Position numbers and translations under genes: made by a program | The notes under the pieces: model-generated | Seen by the model: the letters and a program-made list of their open reading frames with translations, nothing else | What the model was told of the DNA's origin: nothing | Databases searched by the model: none | Assembly: GCF_013927005.1 (NCBI RefSeq) | Contig: NZ_CP055930.1 | Coordinates: 3,596,001 to 3,660,000 of the forward strand | Direction of reading: 5' to 3' | DNA length: 64,000 nt | Source: Enterobacter sp. RHBSTW-00175 | Lineage (GTDB): Bacteria; Pseudomonadota; Gammaproteobacteria; Enterobacterales; Enterobacteriaceae | Part shown: piece by piece, positions 2,686 through 34,621 of the stretch | Layout of the letters: every line of letters begins with the position of its first letter | How positions within the stretch are numbered: position 1 is the stretch's first letter

Positions 2686-3779
<1,094 letters not shown>

Positions 3780-8500: not shown

Positions 8501-8576
8501 GGGTCGTTAGCTCAGTTGGTAGAGCAGTTGACTTTTAATCAATTGGTCGCAGGTTCGAATCCTGCACGACCCACCA
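8501..8576 (+). tRNA. lysT: tRNA-Lys(TTT), copy 1
   Basis: 76-base cloverleaf with encoded CCA; acceptor GGGTCGT/ACGACCC, anticodon loop CTTTTAA giving anticodon TTT, and T-arm GCAGGTTCGAATCCTGC. Identical to the other three Lys copies. Confidence 0.99.
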
Positions 8577-8658
8577 CTAATCTGGTGGATAGTAGTAATT
8601 CAGCGTGAAGGATAACGTTGCGTAAGCAACGGCCAGTAGGGCGAGGCAAAGCCGAGTC

Positions 8659-8676
8659 ATCCTGCACGACCCACCA
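8659..8676 (+). repeat. Decayed 3' end of tRNA-Lys, copy A
   Basis: 18 bases (ATCCTGCACGACCCACCA) identical to the 3' end of tRNA-Lys, with no tRNA body upstream. It closes a 100-bp segment that follows the first tRNA-Lys. This resembles the tandem segments after E. coli tyrT, each of which carries the last 19 bases of its tRNA. Confidence 0.85.
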
Positions 8677-8703
8677 ATTAAAGCAGTACCGGTAATACAG
8701 AGT

Positions 8704-8779
8704 GGGTGATTAGCTCAGTTGGTAGAGCATCTCCTTTACACGGAGGGGGTCGGCGGTTCGAGCCCGTCATCACCCACCA
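8704..8779 (+). tRNA. valT: tRNA-Val(TAC)
   Basis: 76-base cloverleaf with CCA; acceptor GGGTGAT/ATCACCC, anticodon loop TTTACAC giving anticodon TAC. Followed after 3 bases by the next tRNA-Lys, so both come from one transcript. Confidence 0.98.
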
Positions 8780-8782
8780 CTC

Positions 8783-8858
8783 GGGTCGTTAGCTCAGTTG
8801 GTAGAGCAGTTGACTTTTAATCAATTGGTCGCAGGTTCGAATCCTGCACGACCCACCA
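8783..8858 (+). tRNA. lysW: tRNA-Lys(TTT), copy 2
   Basis: Same 76-base sequence as copy 1, with encoded CCA and anticodon TTT. Separated from tRNA-Val by the three bases CTC. Confidence 0.99.
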
Positions 8859-8900
8859 ATTCTTATTGGTTCCGAGTGATAATTCAGGCAATACCCAGAT

Positions 8901-8976
8901 GGGTCGTTAGCTCAGTTGGTAGAGCAGTTGACTTTTAATCAATTGGTCGCAGGTTCGAATCCTGCACGACCCACCA
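8901..8976 (+). tRNA. tRNA-Lys(TTT), copy 3
   Basis: Identical 76-base copy, with encoded CCA and anticodon TTT. Confidence 0.99.
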
Positions 8977-9007
8977 GCCTGAATAAATTTGAAGTACATC
9001 CCGCAAG

Positions 9008-9083
9008 GGGTCGTTAGCTCAGTTGGTAGAGCAGTTGACTTTTAATCAATTGGTCGCAGGTTCGAATCCTGCACGACCCACCA
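9008..9083 (+). tRNA. tRNA-Lys(TTT), copy 4
   Basis: Identical 76-base copy. Immediately followed by a strong terminator, so it is the last working tRNA of the array. Confidence 0.99.
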
Positions 9084-26296: not shown

Positions 26297-27580
26297 TTAC
26301 TGCTTCGGCTCTGCAACCACTTTGCTACCCAGACCGCGGTTGTTGTATTCCCACATGCGGTTGAAGTTAGCGTCGTTCAGGTTGCGCTGCACGTTGCCTT
26401 TATCATCCACAGCACCGGTGTTGCCGGAGAATGGACGTTTAGACACTGCGGCGTCTGCCCACGGTTTTGCCGTGTTGAAACCTTCGTTGATCACGCTGTC
26501 GCGGATAACAACCTGGCCGTTGGTGGCAGAGTCCACATCCAGAGAGCGACCCAACTGCGCAACGCCATTACCGGACGCGGTGAAGCGGCTGTTCACCGCC
26601 AGGAAGCCGTAGAACAGGCTGGACTGTGTTGCCGGCGCGAACACATAACCTTCCTGCTGTGTACGGGAGTTCACTACGCGGAATTCAGTGTTATTAAACA
26701 CCACGGCGCCACGACCAGAAACGAGGTCTACATCGCCTTCAACGTAGCTGTTGGTGACCAGAGTACGGGTCAGACGGTTATTCACAATCGTGTTCTGTAC
26801 ACCGCTGTTGGTCACGAAGAAGGTGTTCTGACGACCCAGAATGTTCACGTTATTAATCTGAACCTGATCGCCATCACTGCGCAGTGCAACCGCCTGATGA
26901 GTACCAGCATCCACGCTATCACCCAGGGTGTTTTGAATGGTCAGGTTCTGCAACTGAAGGCCGTTGTTCTGCGACCAGAATACCGCAGAGCACATCATAC
27001 CCACGGTCGCGGTACGTTTGCTCTGGCAGTTATCGAACATATACCACGCAGGTTTGCCCGGCATATATTTCCCGGCCGGGTTCACCAGACGACGCCAGGT
27101 GTTGCTGTCGATTTCGGAGTCAATCGCCAGACCAATTTTCGCGTCGATGGCTTTTTCACCCGTACCGTACAGGGTAATGCTGCCTGGCGCGGCAGGCACA
27201 TAAACGGTGCCTTCGTATTCGCCTGGCAGGATCGCGATGTACTGGCGGGATGCGCTGTGTTTGGTGATTGCTGCGTCAACTGCTGCCTGAATAGAGGTAT
27301 GCGTGACACCCTGCGTACCTGCCGGGCCGACAACAAAATCAGGCTGCTTAGGCAGGTTGATTGAAGACGGGCTCCACGGTGCCCCATTTGGGTCCATTGC
27401 CGTGAAGTAACGCGCCTGGCTGAAGTTTTTCGCTTCATCAGCAGACAGTACCGGACGAGATGCGGTGCCCGGTGCAACCTGCTCAGAAGGCTGCTGGTCC
27501 GGTGGGGTTGAGCTACATGCGGATAATGTCACGCCAAAGGCAAGTGCTAACGCCAGACGGGAAATCCTGGAAATGTTCAA
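26297..27580 (-). CDS. ybhC: Outer-membrane lipoprotein of the pectinesterase fold, YbhC
   Basis: 427 residues. Lipoprotein signal with lipobox LSAC at Cys22; the following residues (Ser-Ser) fit outer-membrane sorting. A right-handed beta-helix of the pectin methylesterase family fills the rest (IQAAVDAAI, SYVEGDVDLVSGRGAVVFNN). E. coli YbhC is reported as an acyl-CoA thioesterase rather than a pectinesterase, so the substrate is uncertain. Confidence 0.93.
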   Translation of the reverse strand: MNISRISRLALALAFGVTLSACSSTPPDQQPSEQVAPGTASRPVLSADEAKNFSQARYFTAMDPNGAPWSPSSINLPKQPDFVVGPAGTQGVTHTSIQAAVDAAITKHSASRQYIAILPGEYEGTVYVPAAPGSITLYGTGEKAIDAKIGLAIDSEIDSNTWRRLVNPAGKYMPGKPAWYMFDNCQSKRTATVGMMCSAVFWSQNNGLQLQNLTIQNTLGDSVDAGTHQAVALRSDGDQVQINNVNILGRQNTFFVTNSGVQNTIVNNRLTRTLVTNSYVEGDVDLVSGRGAVVFNNTEFRVVNSRTQQEGYVFAPATQSSLFYGFLAVNSRFTASGNGVAQLGRSLDVDSATNGQVVIRDSVINEGFNTAKPWADAAVSKRPFSGNTGAVDDKGNVQRNLNDANFNRMWEYNNRGLGSKVVAEPKQ

Positions 27581-27627
27581 GGTAAAGCTCCTGGGTATGC
27601 AAGTCTTAACGAGATAGACGAAATAGC

Positions 27628-27648
27628 CTGCTTTTTTATACTAAGTTG
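27628..27648. other. attB: Phage lambda attB-like attachment site
   Basis: Contains the exact 15-bp lambda core GCTTTTTTATACTAA at 27630-27644, preceded by CT and followed by GTTG. It equals the 21-bp lambda attB as recalled at 20 of 21 positions; the one change (C to G after the core) makes the right half read CAACTTAGT on the minus strand, the sequence of the attP C' site. It lies just upstream of ybhC, its position in E. coli. No prophage is present. Confidence 0.85.
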
Positions 27649-27744
27649 AGCGAAACGGGAAGTTTAAATGGTAAAAAGTTGCATTTTTCGCCCAGCGGAT
27701 GCGGGAAAGTAATCACAAATAAATAACATTTTCCGTAAAGGCGG

Positions 27745-27782
27745 TTGACAGCGGCAAACAGATGAAAATAAATGTCTATACA
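27745..27782 (+). promoter_or_regulatory. hutIGC promoter with HutC operator
   Basis: TTGACA at 27745-27750, a 17-base spacer and ATAAAT at 27768-27773. The 10-bp sequence TGTCTATACA (27773-27782) overlaps the end of the -10 and the expected start point. The identical 10-mer sits at the hutU promoter, which supports it as the HutC repressor site. Confidence 0.75.
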
Positions 27783-27804
27783 ACCCATGACAAGTGGAAG
27801 CCCC

Positions 27805-29028
27805 ATGCAGCAGCTTCATCCCGACGATGTTATCTGGCGTAATGCGCGACTGGCGACAATGGATCCCGACCATCCCGCCCCTTATGGACTGACTGAACAC
27901 TCTGCGCTGGTGGTCCGCGGCCGGACGATCCTGGCCGTGATCCCCGAAGCAGACATCCCTCACGGGCACGCTAACAGCAAGGATTTAGCGGGAAGGCTGG
28001 TTACGCCGGGGCTTATCGACTGCCATACCCATCTGGTATTTGGCGGCGATCGCGCGGCGGAATGGGAGCAGCGGTTAAACGGTGTCTCTTATCAGACCAT
28101 AAGCGCACAGGGCGGCGGGATTAACGCCACCGTGACCGCAACCCGCAACAGCACCCCGGAAGCGTTACTGAAGCTTGCTCAGCAGCGCCTGCAACGGCTG
28201 ATGAATGAAGGCGTGACAACCCTTGAAATCAAGTCAGGATACGGTCTGAATGCCGAAGCCGAAGAGAAAATGTTGCAGGTGGCGCGCCAGCTCGGCCATA
28301 AAAATCCGGTGGAAATTAGCCCGACGCTGCTTGCGGCTCATGCGGTGCCCGCAGAATACCGGCATGACCCGGATGCCTATCTCACGCTGGTGTGCGAGCA
28401 GATAATGCCTGCCCTGTGGCAAAAAGGGTTGTTCGAATCGGTAGACGTTTTTTGTGAAAACGTCGGATTCACCCCAGCGCAAACCGAGCGGGTATTCCAG
28501 GCCGCGCTCGCGCTGGGTATTCCGGTGAAAGGGCATGTCGAGCAGCTTTCTAATCTTGGCGGCGCGGCGTTGGTCAGCCGTTACCAGGGGCTTTCCGCCG
28601 ATCATATTGAATATCTTGATGAGGCCGGGGTTCAGGCGATGGCAGAAAGCGGCACTGTTGCAGTACTGCTACCCGGTGCTTTCTATTTCCTCCAGGAGCG
28701 CCAGCGCCCGCCGGTTGAACAGCTCAGAAAACAGGGTGTTGTTATGGCGGTCGCCACCGACTACAACCCCGGGACCAGCCCGTTTGCCAGCCTGCATCTG
28801 GCGATGAATATGGCCTGTGTCCAGTTTGGCCTGACCCCCGAAGAAGCCTGGGCTGGTGTGACGCGACATGCCGCACACGCGCTCGGACGTGGTGCAACTC
28901 ACGGGCAGTTAAAGGCAGGTTTTGTGGCTGACTTTATCGTCTGGGATGCTAAGCACCCTGTAGAAATGGTGTATGAACCCGGGCGTAACCCGCTGTATCA
29001 ACGTATCTTTCGTGGGGAGGCAGTATGA
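27805..29028 (+). CDS. hutI: Imidazolonepropionase
   Basis: 407 residues, amidohydrolase family. Metal-site motif [12 protein letters not shown] (about 75-86), further ligands in [11 protein letters not shown] (about 249) and [10 protein letters not shown] (about 321). Opens the imidazolone ring in step 3 of histidine breakdown. The start at 27805 (after GGAAG) is chosen because upstream in-frame starts (27772, 27787) fall in the promoter/operator. Overlaps hutG by 4 bases. Confidence 0.95.
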
Positions 29029-29963
29029 CGTTATGGCGGCCCGTTTCTGAACAGGTCTGGCAGGGGCGCGATGACAGCGCAGAGGCCAGCAATGCCACAC
29101 GCATTTTCCAGACCATCCGGCAGCAGGCGCAGTTTGCGCCCGAATCCTCAGGTATTGCGCTGCTGGGCTTCGGGTGTGATGAAGGCGTAAAACGCAACCA
29201 CGGCAGACCGGGTGCCGTGCAGGCTCCCGATGTCCTGCGCAAAGCGCTGGCAAATATGGCCAGCCATCAGGGGCATGAGCGGCTTGTGGATATGGGCACG
29301 ATTGATGTCGAGGGTGAAGCGCTTGAAGCCGCGCAGCGGGCGTTAAGCGATGCGGTTACAGCCTGCCAGCGTGCCGGGATGCATACGCTTGTTTTTGGCG
29401 GCGGGCATGAAACCGCCTGGGCGCACGGGCGCGGCGTACTGGATGCCTTCCCGCATGAGCGTGTGGCCATTATTAACCTTGATGCCCATCTTGATCTGCG
29501 CAAGGCAGAACGTGCCACCTCCGGCACGCCGTTTCGTCAGCTTGCGCACTACTGTGCTGAACAGTCTCGCGCGTTTCAGTATGCCTGTTTTGGCGTAAGC
29601 CGGGCGGCAAATACTCAGGCGTTGTGGGATGAAGCCGAACGGCTGAACGTGACGCTGGTTGAAGATCTCCATTTCCGTCGCGACGCGTTATCCGCGCTTG
29701 AGGAGGTTCTGGCCCGGGCAGACAACGTTTATCTGACCATCGATCTTGATGTGTTGCCCGCCGGTGAGATGCCCGCCGTATCAGCTCCTGCGGCGTTAGG
29801 TATTCCTGCGCTGGACTTGTTGCCGGTCATCGAGCGCATCTGCCGCAGCGGAAAACTGCGGGCGGCAGATTTAGTTGAATTTAATCCACATTACGACCGG
29901 GACGGTCAGGGGGCGAAACTCGCCGCCCGTCTGGCCTGGCAAATTGCTCACTGGTGGGCATAA
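29025..29963 (+). CDS. hutG: Formimidoylglutamase
   Basis: 312 residues, arginase/agmatinase fold. Two-manganese site residues in GGGHETAW (about 127), NLDAHLDLR (about 153-157) and [10 protein letters not shown] (about 240-243). Hydrolyses N-formimidoyl-glutamate to glutamate and formamide, the last hut step. ATG overlaps the hutI stop. Confidence 0.95.
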
Positions 29964-29982
29964 CACAGGTTAAGGAGTCACC

Positions 29983-30717
29983 ATGTTTTCACGCTCACCT
30001 CAGACCCAACCGAGCCCGCCTGCGCCGTTTTACGAAAAGGTGAAGCAGGCGATCAGCGAAAAAATTGCCAGCGGCGTATGGCGCCCACACGACCGTATAC
30101 CGTCAGAGGCTGAGCTGGTGGCGCAGTTTGGTTTTAGCCGTATGACCATCAACCGCGCGCTGCGCGAGCTGACCGATGAAGGCTTGCTGGTGCGCCTGCA
30201 AGGGGTGGGGACCTTTGTGGCTGAACCAAAAGGACAATCGGCCCTGTTTGAAATCCGCAGTATTGCCGATGAGATTGCAGCGCGTAACCATCAGCACCAT
30301 TGCGAAGTGCTGGTGCTTGAAGAAACCCAGGCCAGTGCCGAACAGGCTCTGGAGCTGAACGTCAAAGAGGGGACGCGGGTTTTCCATTCGATAATGGTCC
30401 ACTTTGAAAATGATGTCCCGGTGCAGATTGAAGATCGCTGCGTCAATGCGCTGAGCGTGCCCGAATATCTTGAACAGGATTATACCCGCACCACACCGCA
30501 CGCGTATTTGTCGCTGGTGGCACCGCTCACGGAAGGGGAGCATATCGTGGAAGCAGTGCGCGCTACACAGCAGGAGTGGGAACTGCTGCGGATTAAAGAG
30601 CACGATCCCTGCCTGCTTATCCGCCGCCGCACCTGGTCATCGTCCCAGATAGTGTCACACGCCAGGCTGCTGTTCCCGGGAGATCGTTACCGGTTGCAGG
30701 GCCATTTTATGTCCTGA
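29983..30717 (+). CDS. hutC: Histidine utilisation repressor
   Basis: 244 residues, GntR family, HutC subfamily. Winged helix-turn-helix at about residues 18-80 (IPSEAELVAQFGFSRMTINRAL), then a UTRA effector domain (about 95-238) expected to bind urocanate. Third gene of hutIGC, so it controls its own operon. Two matching operator cores are found in the region. Confidence 0.95.
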   Translation: MFSRSPQTQPSPPAPFYEKVKQAISEKIASGVWRPHDRIPSEAELVAQFGFSRMTINRALRELTDEGLLVRLQGVGTFVAEPKGQSALFEIRSIADEIAARNHQHHCEVLVLEETQASAEQALELNVKEGTRVFHSIMVHFENDVPVQIEDRCVNALSVPEYLEQDYTRTTPHAYLSLVAPLTEGEHIVEAVRATQQEWELLRIKEHDPCLLIRRRTWSSSQIVSHARLLFPGDRYRLQGHFMS

Positions 30718-30736
30718 GGGTCATAAGAAGTAAAAG

Positions 30737-30812
30737 CGTGATAGCTAACTCAATATAACAAAATTGTATCTTTTTTGTTAAAACCATCCTTGTGTGTGCT
30801 TGTCTATACAAG
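30737..30812 (+). promoter_or_regulatory. hutUH control region: CRP-like, NAC-like and HutC sites
   Basis: From upstream: a CRP-like site with half site CGTGA (about 30737-30752), a NAC-type motif ATA-N9-TAT at 30755-30769, and the HutC core TGTCTATACA at 30801-30810 extended to the palindrome CTTGTCTATACAAG. CRP and NAC centres are 17.5 bp apart, the spacing I recall for Klebsiella hutU (-81.5 and -64). That predicts a start near 30826. Confidence 0.7.
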
Positions 30813-30853
30813 TATATCTATTTGTATCATCTGTCCCGTATGAGGAGCACACA

Positions 30854-32539
30854 ATGTCGTCAGGTAAATACCGCCAGCAGGATGTCCGCGCTGCGCGTGG
30901 CACCACGCTCACTGCAAAAAGCTGGCTCACCGAAGCACCGCTGCGCATGTTGATGAACAACCTTGATCCTGAGGTCGCAGAAAATCCCCATGAGTTAGTG
31001 GTCTACGGCGGCATTGGCCGTGCCGCGCGCAACTGGGAGTGCTACGACGCCATTGTAGAAGCCCTGACTCAACTGGAGAACGACGAAACTCTGCTGGTGC
31101 AATCCGGCAAACCGGTCGGCGTATTCAAAACCCACAAAAACGCGCCGCGCGTGCTGATTGCAAACTCAAACCTGGTGCCACACTGGGCGACCTGGGAACA
31201 CTTCAACGAGCTGGACGCGAAAGGGCTGGCGATGTACGGCCAGATGACCGCAGGTAGCTGGATCTATATTGGCAGTCAGGGGATTGTGCAGGGAACCTAT
31301 GAAACCTTCGTTGAGGCCGGTCGCCAGCACTATAACGGCTCGCTGAAAGGCCGTTGGGTACTGACTGCGGGTTTAGGCGGAATGGGCGGTGCACAGCCGC
31401 TGGCCGCAACGCTTGCTGGTGCCTGTTCCCTGAACATTGAATGCCAGCAGAGCCGCATCGATTTCCGTCTGCGTACCCGCTATGTCGATGAACAGGCCGA
31501 AAACCTTGATGACGCGCTGGCGCGCATTAAAAAATACACCGCTGAAGGTAAAGCTGTGTCGATTGCCCTGTGCGGTAACGCGGCGGATATCCTCCCGGAA
31601 CTGGTGGCTCGCGGCGTTCGCCCTGATTTAGTCACCGACCAGACCAGCGCCCACGATCCGCTGCACGGCTATCTGCCTAAAGGCTGGACGTGGGAAGCCT
31701 ATCAGCAAAAAGCCGAAACCGACCCGGAAGGCACGGTGCTTGCGGCAAAACAATCCATGGCAGAGCATGTGAGCGCCATGCTGGCGTTCAGCAAGATGGG
31801 CATCCCTACCTTCGATTACGGCAACAACATCCGCCAGATGGCCAAAGAGATGGGGGTGGCCAACGCTTTTGATTTCCCGGGCTTCGTACCTGCCTATATC
31901 CGCCCGCTGTTCTGTCGCGGTATTGGCCCATTCCGCTGGGTTGCCCTGTCCGGCGACCCGGAAGATATCTACAAAACGGATGCGAAGGTCAAAGAGATTG
32001 TTGCAGACGACGAACACCTGCATCACTGGCTGGATATGGCCCGCGAACGCATTAACTTCCAGGGCTTACCGGCGCGTATCTGCTGGGTAGGGCTGGAATG
32101 GCGCCAGAAGCTGGGCCTGGCGTTTAACGAAATGGTGCGCAGCGGTGAAGTCTCCGCGCCGATTGTTATCGGACGCGACCACCTCGATTCCGGTTCGGTC
32201 GCTAGCCCTAACCGTGAAACCGAAGCCATGCGTGACGGTTCGGATGCGGTATCCGACTGGCCATTACTGAATGCGTTACTGAACACTGCCAGCGGTGCAA
32301 CCTGGGTATCGCTGCACCACGGCGGCGGCGTAGGAATGGGCTTCTCCCAGCATTCGGGGATGGTCATTGTCTGCGACGGTACTGACGAAGCGGCCGCGCG
32401 TATCGCTCGCGTGCTGCATAACGACCCGGCAACCGGCGTGATGCGACATGCGGATGCGGGTTACGAGATAGCGGTTGAATGTGCCAAAGAGCAGGGGTTA
32501 AACCTGCCGATGATCCCTGCCACACAAGGAAAGCTTTAA
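30854..32539 (+). CDS. hutU: Urocanate hydratase
   Basis: 561 residues. NAD-dependent conversion of urocanate to imidazolonepropionate. NAD-fold motif [18 protein letters not shown] (about 173-190); active-site region with [19 protein letters not shown] (Cys about 405). Start at the ATG after GAGGAG; a longer open frame reaching 30794 crosses the promoter. Its stop overlaps the hutH ATG. Confidence 0.97.
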
Positions 32540-34059
32540 TGAACGTTCTTACACTCACCCCCGGCTCACTGACGCTAAAACAGCTGCGTAACGTCTGGCG
32601 TCACCCGGTGACACTGGCGCTGGATGAAAGCGCCCATCGCGCAATTAACGACAGCGTTGCCTGCGTCGAGGCCATTGTGGCCGAAGGGCGCACCGCGTAC
32701 GGTATCAACACCGGATTTGGCCTGTTAGCCCAGACGCGTATTGCGACTCACGATCTGGAAAACCTGCAACGTTCGCTGGTGCTTTCCCATGCGGCGGGCG
32801 TTGGGCAGCCGCTGGATGATGAGATTGTCCGTCTGATGATGGTACTCAAAATCAACAGCCTGGCGCGTGGTTTTTCCGGCATCCGACTGAGCGTTATCCA
32901 GGCGCTGATGGCGCTGGTGAATGCCGACGTCTATCCGTGGATCCCGGCGAAAGGCTCTGTGGGTGCCTCCGGCGACCTGGCTCCCCTGGCGCATATGTCT
33001 TTGCTGCTGCTGGGTGAAGGCAAGGCGCGCTGGCAGGGAGAGTGGTTACCTGCGAAAGAGGCGCTGAAAAAAGCGGGTCTGGCGCCGATTACGTTGGCGG
33101 CGAAAGAAGGCCTGGCGCTGCTCAATGGGACGCAGGCATCCACTGCATTTGCCCTGCGCGGCCTGTTTGAAGCCGAAGATCTGTTTGCCTCGGCGGTGGT
33201 GTGCGGTGCCCTGACCACCGAAGCTGTGCTCGGCTCACGTCGTCCGTTTGATGCTCGTATTCACGAGGTGCGCGGTCAGCGTGGGCAGATTGATGCCGCT
33301 GCGATGTACCGTCATTTACTCACGGATACCAGCGACATTGCCGAGTCTCACCATAACTGTGACAAGGTGCAGGATCCGTATTCCCTGCGCTGCCAGCCAC
33401 AGGTGATGGGGGCGTGTCTGACGCAACTACGTCAGGCGGCAGAGGTATTGCTGGTGGAAGCCAACGCGGTGTCGGATAACCCGCTGGTGTTTGCCCAGGA
33501 AAACGAAGTGGTGTCCGGTGGTAACTTCCACGCTGAGCCTGTGGCAATGGCAGCAGATAACATTGCGCTGGCGATTGCCGAAGTGGGGGCGTTATCTGAA
33601 CGCCGTATCGCGCTGATGATGGACAAACATATGTCTCAGTTGCCACCGTTCCTGGTGCGTAACGGCGGGGTGAACTCGGGCTTTATGATTGCCCAGGTGA
33701 CGGCCGCGGCGCTGGCAAGTGAGAACAAAGCGCTGTCGCATCCGCACAGCGTGGACAGCCTGCCGACATCGGCAAACCAGGAAGATCACGTTTCGATGGC
33801 TCCGGCTGCCGGGCGTCGTCTGTGGGAAATGGCCTCTAACACCCGTGGAGTACTGGCGGTTGAGTGGCTGGCGGCCTGTCAGGGTGTTGACCTGCGTGAA
33901 GGGCTGAAATCCAGTGCGTTACTGGAGCAGGCACGCCATGTTCTGCGCGAGCATGTCACGCATTACGATGACGACCGTTTCTTTGCCCCGGATATTGATA
34001 AGGCGATGCAGCTTCTTGAGGAAGGGCGGCTGGTGGGATTGTTACCGTCGGTGCTGTAA
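32539..34059 (+). CDS. hutH: Histidine ammonia-lyase
   Basis: 506 residues. Deaminates histidine to urocanate, the first hut step. The Ala-Ser-Gly triad that forms the MIO prosthetic group is in [16 protein letters not shown] (about residue 140); the active-site loop YGINTGFG is near residue 53. ATG overlaps the hutU stop (TAATG). Confidence 0.97.
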
Positions 34060-34065
34060 TTGCTT

Positions 34066-34138
34066 GCCCGGTGGCACTGAGCTTACCGGGCCTACGGGTG
34101 CAAAATGTAGGCCGGGTAAGGCGAAGCCGCCACCCGGC
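34066..34138. repeat. Pair of REP units in inverted orientation (BIME)
   Basis: REP unit 1 at 34066-34095 (GCCCGGT / ACCGGGC then CTAC) faces REP unit 2 at 34107-34138 (GTAGGCCGGGT / ACCCGGC). They sit between hutH and the convergent ybhB, where they may also aid termination. No separate terminator is obvious. Confidence 0.9.
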
Positions 34139-34144
34139 TTTTTA

Positions 34145-34621
34145 TCAGGAGTACATCGCCGTTATCGACGCGCTTCCAAGCGAATGGAAGTGCACGTTAA
34201 AGCCCACCATCGCGCCGCTGGCACCTTCGTCCACTTCAATCCTATCCACATCCAGTGCATGAACCGTGAAGATATAGCGGTGGGTTTCCCCTTTTGGTGG
34301 TGCAGCGCCGCCGTACCCCGCTTTACCAAAGTCGGTACGCGTCTGGATCGCGCCCTCTGGCAGGGCGGCAACGCCAGAGCCCGCACCCTGCGGCAGGACG
34401 CGCGTGCTGGCTGGCAGGTTGGCGACAATCCAGTGCCACCAGCCCGAGCCGGTTGGCGCATCCGGGTCGTAGCAGGTGACGACAAAGCTTTTGGTTCCCT
34501 CAGGAACGTCATCCCAGGCCAGATGCGGGGATAAATTATCCCCCTGATATCCCATTCCGTTAAATACGTGGCGCTCAGGCAATTTCTCGCCGTCGCGCAG
34601 ATCCTGACTGATGAGTTTCAT
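34145..34621 (-). CDS. ybhB: PEBP-family protein YbhB
   Basis: 158 residues, phosphatidylethanolamine-binding/Raf-kinase-inhibitor-like family. Conserved CYDPDAPTGSGWWHW (about 50-64) and GPNGHR-equivalent PPKGETHRYIFTVHAL. No signal peptide. Start chosen as MKLISQDLRD; nine upstream codons are not family-like. Function in bacteria is unknown. Confidence 0.94.
   Translation of the reverse strand: MKLISQDLRDGEKLPERHVFNGMGYQGDNLSPHLAWDDVPEGTKSFVVTCYDPDAPTGSGWWHWIVANLPASTRVLPQGAGSGVAALPEGAIQTRTDFGKAGYGGAAPPKGETHRYIFTVHALDVDRIEVDEGASGAMVGFNVHFHSLGSASITAMYS

Follow-up and report, generated by a model that had tools for sequence, protein, structure and literature searches.

An empty lambda-type attB site in an Enterobacter genome lies within a conserved element upstream of ybhC

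The window analysed here, the whole stretch of 64,000 nucleotides at positions 3,596,001 to 3,660,000 of Enterobacter sp. RHBSTW-00175 contig NZ_CP055930.1, carries an empty, ordinary and well-conserved relative of the phage lambda attB site. It is likely to be an attachment site for integrases of the lambda Int family, unoccupied here and enclosed in a 38-bp cis element, which is itself most probably the promoter or operator of ybhC. The features concerned are as follows.

26297..27580, minus strand: ybhC, putative acyl-CoA thioester hydrolase or pectinesterase-like outer membrane lipoprotein (NF007822, 675.9 bits against a cut-off of 436)
27625..27662, minus strand: 38-bp conserved cis element of ybhC containing attB; on the ybhC strand, CTTCCC (27662-27657), 16 nt and TATAAA (27640-27635)
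27628..27648, plus strand: attB orthologue, the 21-mer CTGCTTTTTTATACTAAGTTG, with G at 27645 where K-12 has C and no other difference
27635..27641, plus strand: TTTATAC, 7 bp, identical to K-12 and to lambda attP
27805..34059, plus strand: hutI, hutG, hutC, hutU and hutH, neighbours on the other side and outside the site
34145..34621, minus strand: ybhB, which adjoins attB in E. coli
34692..35999, minus strand: bioA, next after ybhB

A first-pass annotation had described a near-perfect attB with the exact 15-bp lambda core in the same place as in E. coli, and this description holds. The core lies at 27630-27644 and occurs once in the 5.57-Mb genome, still once when one mismatch is allowed, while the reversed control gave no match. 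Within the window, a scan allowing up to three mismatches returned three core matches against 0.76 expected in shuffled sequence; 6 of 100 shuffles reached three, and the two further matches have three mismatches each. The orthologous place in E. coli MG1655 reads CTGCTTTTTTATACTAACTTG and is 44 bp from the annotated ybhC, compared with 47 bp in the window. The two sites agree at 20 of 21 bases, position 27645 being G in the window and C in MG1655. Lambda attP (J02459) reads CAGCTTTTTTATACTAAGTTG; it differs at the second base and has G at the base matching 27645, so the run shared with lambda is 19 bp for the window and 15 bp for K-12. The right half of the window site is thus the lambda C' half, as the annotation had proposed, and the left half is identical to that of K-12.

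TTTATAC at 27635..27641 is taken to be the 7-bp strand-exchange overlap of lambda. Both the core and this overlap equal those of lambda attP and attB. Two inverted Int core half-sites, B and B', are present. The chromosomal place is also the same, with mod, pgl and ybhC on one side and bioA on the other, and the orthologous site is occupied by Int-family elements in relatives. The distance to hutI (start 27805), put earlier at about 160 bp, was measured as 156 bp. Enterobacter soli ATCC BAA-2102 is a close relative, with 95.3% identity to the window over 8001 bases. No close relative of lambda Int was found in the window's genome, the best match having 39% identity and lying 0.5 Mb from the window. 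Five clustered tRNA genes, four Lys (ttt) and one Val (tac), were seen at window positions 8501-9083.

PMC4880445 places lambda attB between gal and bio, and PMC9580842 describes the Escherichia ybhC/ybhB site as the phage lambda locus and a locus abundant in GIs.

The base at 27645, noted earlier as the single difference, is not peculiar to this lineage. The exact 19-mer GCTTTTTTATACTAAGTTG is present once each in 60 of the 61 genomes of the window's genus, the exception being a 79%-complete assembly. The 30 loci inspected, which represent 30 of these 60 genomes, all share the same 37 bp around the core, with hutI following. None of the 61 genomes has another exact core; a second match with two mismatches occurs in four of them (G321, G322, G333 and G347), at least about 145 kb away or on another contig. 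When a species collection was scanned for both forms of the 21-mer, with C and with G, 83 sites were obtained on 82 stretches; 80 of the sites have G and three have C, so that the conservation in relatives on which the annotation depended is present. The fetched piece includes ybhC for 78 of the 80 G sites, the other two pieces ending less than 80 bp from the site. Host sequence lies to the right in 75 and phage-type DNA, the attL arrangement, in five. When 80 empty loci were aligned from ybhC, 67 had G and 13 had C. G is therefore the common state at this position and the C of E. coli the exception, and we infer that G is ancestral.

The three C-form sites of the species collection all fall in the archaeon Ferroplasma acidarmanus (L224 1990-2010; L291 5210-5230 and 7649-7669), and one of the copies adjoins polylinker-like sequence. 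These may be vector DNA in the assembly.

Whole sites in E. coli are almost all of the C form. A 401-bp K-12 probe matched 5374 of 5426 complete genomes, 3455 of them unbroken, and a short probe requiring C found the whole site in the same number, 3455. The corresponding probe requiring G found the whole site in one genome and matched partially in 1566 others; among the matches listed, these partial matches cover the left half only, as expected of attL. In 12 Escherichia genomes the right half reads AACTTG in three, AACTTT in four and AAGTTG in five. Four of the five AAGTTG genomes are occupied or in attL form, and in the attR of two occupied ones the host half carries G too. Viral contigs with host sequence on the left and phage sequence on the right have G in all of at least 80 sites. 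In those with host sequence on the right and phage sequence on the left, the matches listed comprise 33 with C, three with T and one with G, and among the matches listed for other flank classes there are two further G sites. One viral contig (L150 8787-8805) has a host-like right side, AACGAAACGGGAAGCCGATTT, with no match among the named genomes compared.

The sole E. coli genome with a whole G site is KR2009 (L382, site near 3011-3031), which differs from K-12 over 6055 bp only by this C to G change. Such a pattern would be left by imprecise prophage loss or by chance mutation. The same event could be imagined for the window, whose site would then be a scar, a B-O-C' hybrid left by imprecise loss of a lambda-type prophage and phage-like in its right half for that reason; the G carried by attL copies fits this idea, as does KR2009. 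The proposal is scarcely credible, given that 60 of the 61 genus genomes have the G form flanked by host DNA to the left and to the right (the right flank having been inspected in 30) and that 67 of the 80 empty loci from the family as a whole have it too.

The orthologous site is occupied elsewhere, as a search of relatives for lambdoid prophages, suggested with the first annotation, revealed. Elements were seen in Escherichia, Citrobacter, Salmonella and a Buttiauxella-like genome. Next to the site, sequence similar to lambda Int is present in Escherichia (at 73-99% identity, in some cases only as pieces), in Citrobacter amalonaticus S646 (75%, residues 162-355), in a Salmonella-like genome (64%, residues 110-355) and in a Buttiauxella- or Cedecea-like genome (65%, residues 228-341). 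In a second Salmonella-like genome, where the site is interrupted, there is only a 34% lambda Int match. The C. amalonaticus remnant is bounded by two cores 4570 bp apart and the Salmonella remnant by two cores 4759 bp apart; hutI follows in each. The available stretches of the remaining two interrupted genomes, the Buttiauxella- or Cedecea-like one and the second Salmonella-like one, contain no second core. A 51-kb viral contig has both an attL with a 75% Int and an attR with 189 bp that are 99.5% identical to C. portucalensis. A metagenomic contig has an attR beside ybhB and bioA, with Buttiauxella as its nearest relative (79%). The 61 genomes of the window's own genus showed no insertion of lambda type, and a scan of IMG/VR with an Enterobacter-type left flank gave no prophage match. 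The 4.8-kb Salmonella-like remnant (L071 3732-5330) also has a 532-aa reading frame beside integrase and transposase-like pieces.

Conservation at the site extends beyond attB. Among 295 family genomes, 109 carry ybhC above the family cut-off. The window's 38-bp string was found within nine edits upstream of ybhC in 84 of the 109, where it was located partly by the best 21-mer match and not by distance to ybhC; the other 25 are at 14-17 edits. Random control stretches (60 drawn, 58 scored, two dropped because they held part of the site) are at 15-18 edits. Five of the 84 loci are interrupted in the right half of the element. An initial conservation profile of 143 loci had been chosen by the 21-mer itself, and the values quoted here come from a profile that starts from ybhC. 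Over 79 empty genomes and K-12, mean conservation is 0.93 for attB and 0.96 for the next 14 bp, compared with 0.52 in the flank on the ybhC side and 0.57 beyond the element. The outer edge is sharp: conservation is complete at the final three positions and drops from 1.00 to 0.68 at the one after. Of 20 ybhC loci that the ungapped scan had not picked up, eight have a T run shorter by one base. Since the 14 bp beyond attB match attB itself in conservation, constraint exerted by the host is suggested.

The element keeps company with ybhC. All 67 genomes with a site at two or fewer mismatches belong to the ybhC-bearing set, as judged by comparing two listings, and ybhC lies on the same side of the element in the 84 loci and K-12. 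Of the 78 loci with an aligned protein start, 69 have the element 32-45 bp from ybhC and nine have it 56-112 bp away. The other neighbour varies, with hut in 34 of the 84 genomes, something other than hut in 48 and no assignment in two; depending on the genome, hut, ybhB, bioA or an insertion lies beyond. The site thus goes with ybhC and not with hut, and it is kept in hut-less genomes too. A conserved block near ybhC, with sharp edges and independent of the other neighbour, is what a promoter or operator of that gene should look like.

The element has the length of a promoter, and its TATAAA matches a -10 at five of six positions. On the ybhC strand the -35 is poor; the best candidate, which needs a 15-nt spacer or another -10, agrees at 8 of 12 positions. 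A consensus promoter scan at the site named only a plus-strand candidate directed towards hutI, TAGACG-16-TATACT, at 9 of 12. Given the poor -35 and a scan that named only this candidate, the role as promoter or operator of ybhC is one that we infer.

The conservation might then stem from the right-hand side, as a promoter for hutI, which starts 156 bp away and towards which the 9-of-12 candidate points. This appears improbable, because 48 of the 84 genomes have the element with something other than hut next to it, and the region of the TAGACG -35 (positions -13 to -8) is not conserved. Somewhat less improbable, but still unlikely, is an element with no transcriptional function kept beside ybhC, for example a site for a chromosome-binding protein. 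The poor -35, a conserved spacer that would be unusual for a plain sigma-70 promoter and the single copy in each of six genomes are all consistent with such a site. Both the place and the length of the element nevertheless suit a promoter: its end falls roughly where transcription would be expected to start, and the leader that follows shows little conservation. A promoter or operator of ybhC that phages use accordingly stays the most likely reading of the 38 bp.

A regulon sharing the element was also considered and rejected. At up to three mismatches, the outer part of the element was found once in each of six genomes, in each case coinciding with known places of the site, and no second target appeared. 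No description of a ybhC element at attB was found in the literature searched, which was judged mostly by titles and abstracts.

The relation of the site to hut was approached through the 76 nt beyond the element in K-12, which were compared with ten genomes (seven hut-bearing, three hut-less). Six of the seven hut-bearing genomes align to K-12 from near the start of this stretch, the best at 22 of 24 positions and the window itself at only 14 of 16 with a gap. No alignment from the start was obtained for one hut-bearing genome (G001) or for any of the three hut-less ones. Past the element, some hut-bearing relatives have about 25 nt in common with Escherichia, which puts the hut boundary in these about 40 bp to the right of attB. 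The claim that hut fills exactly the interval between attB and ybhB therefore stands in part: hut does occupy an interval that is short in E. coli, but "exactly" is only approximate, as 14 conserved bp and about 25 nt past attB separate the boundary from the site.

These observations bear on the idea that attB itself is the boundary of a phage-mediated insertion or loss of hut. The start of hut is close to the site, and elements do insert there in some genomes. Such an origin is very unlikely all the same, considering that 14 bp of the element lie on the far side of attB whether or not a genome has hut there, that the 25 or so nucleotides beyond it are common to Escherichia and some hut-bearing genomes, and that the window has no second core closer than three mismatches.

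The comparison of the att-hut-ybhB region across Enterobacteriaceae that had been proposed for dating the loss of hut points in the same direction as the shared nucleotides. A tree of ybhC proteins was built from 71 of 85 rows, the other 14 having been dropped as fragments. In it, the three Escherichia rows fall within a clade of 16 (100/100) whose other 13 rows are hut-bearing, and the hut label changes six times over the whole tree against 22.7 in shuffles. As Escherichia is nested among hut-bearing relatives and has the 25 or so nucleotides in common with them, it has probably lost hut.

Some further observations concern hut sequences. ATGTCTATACAACCNATGACAAG stands at 27770-27797, before hutI, and recurs in many of the hut-bearing genomes compared; we take it to be possibly a HutC operator. 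A palindromic, REP-like repeat lies at 34106-34138 between hutH and ybhB, and at its counterpart in Enterobacter soli a second identical 33-bp copy is present. E. coli CE10 (L295, 11932-19673) has a hut cluster of another kind, which is near sucD and remote from attB, with hutU, a permease, a hutD-like gene, hutI, hutG and an ammonia-lyase. Matches resembling hutU or hutH occur in 167 of 5426 E. coli genomes, CE10 being the one inspected.

As the promoter or operator of ybhC, the element would have TATAAA near its downstream end and a ybhC leader of about 47 nt. The host would keep it, and temperate phages with a lambda-type integrase would exploit it. Int and IHF would carry out strand exchange within TTTATAC. 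After integration, the ybhC-side half would stay beside ybhC as attL, with int directed towards ybhC, and the other half, with GAGCGAAACGGGAAG at its end, would be carried to attR at the far end of the integrated element. The window's copy is predicted to be competent for recombination, and an insertion may affect ybhC expression.

According to PMC6814406, HK022 attB lies between torS and torT and the prophage is shown to replace the torS promoters. The window site would resemble that case in that a lambda-family phage inserts where a host gene is controlled and places int beside the gene. It differs in that the attB and the host gene are others and the control region of ybhC is deduced from sequence. 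With slightly less than even confidence, it is proposed that attB is half of a ybhC control element across much of the Enterobacteriaceae, that a lysogen cuts this element and leaves ybhC beside phage DNA, as HK022 does with torS, and that the phages are built on a G-carrying host signal of which the E. coli copy is a derived, less phage-like form.

Compared with attB of E. coli K-12, the window site shares 20 of 21 bases, the position 5' of ybhC and the overlap. Unlike that site, it has the phage C' sequence as its right half (G at 27645) and hut, not ybhB, as its next neighbour, and it is known here from sequence. The Citrobacter, Salmonella and Buttiauxella-like elements use the orthologous site with Int relatives of 64-75% identity and carry G in the phage half. 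Their P' arms are different, two of them are short remnants with Int pieces, and the window has no such element.

For the window itself, an empty conserved site is an ordinary finding. The surprise lies in the larger element and in E. coli as the exception. Questions raised are whether lysogeny affects ybhC expression and why phages keep G opposite the C of E. coli. The textbook attB of lambda is placed inside a conserved ybhC element, and relatives of lambda Int use the same site in other genera.
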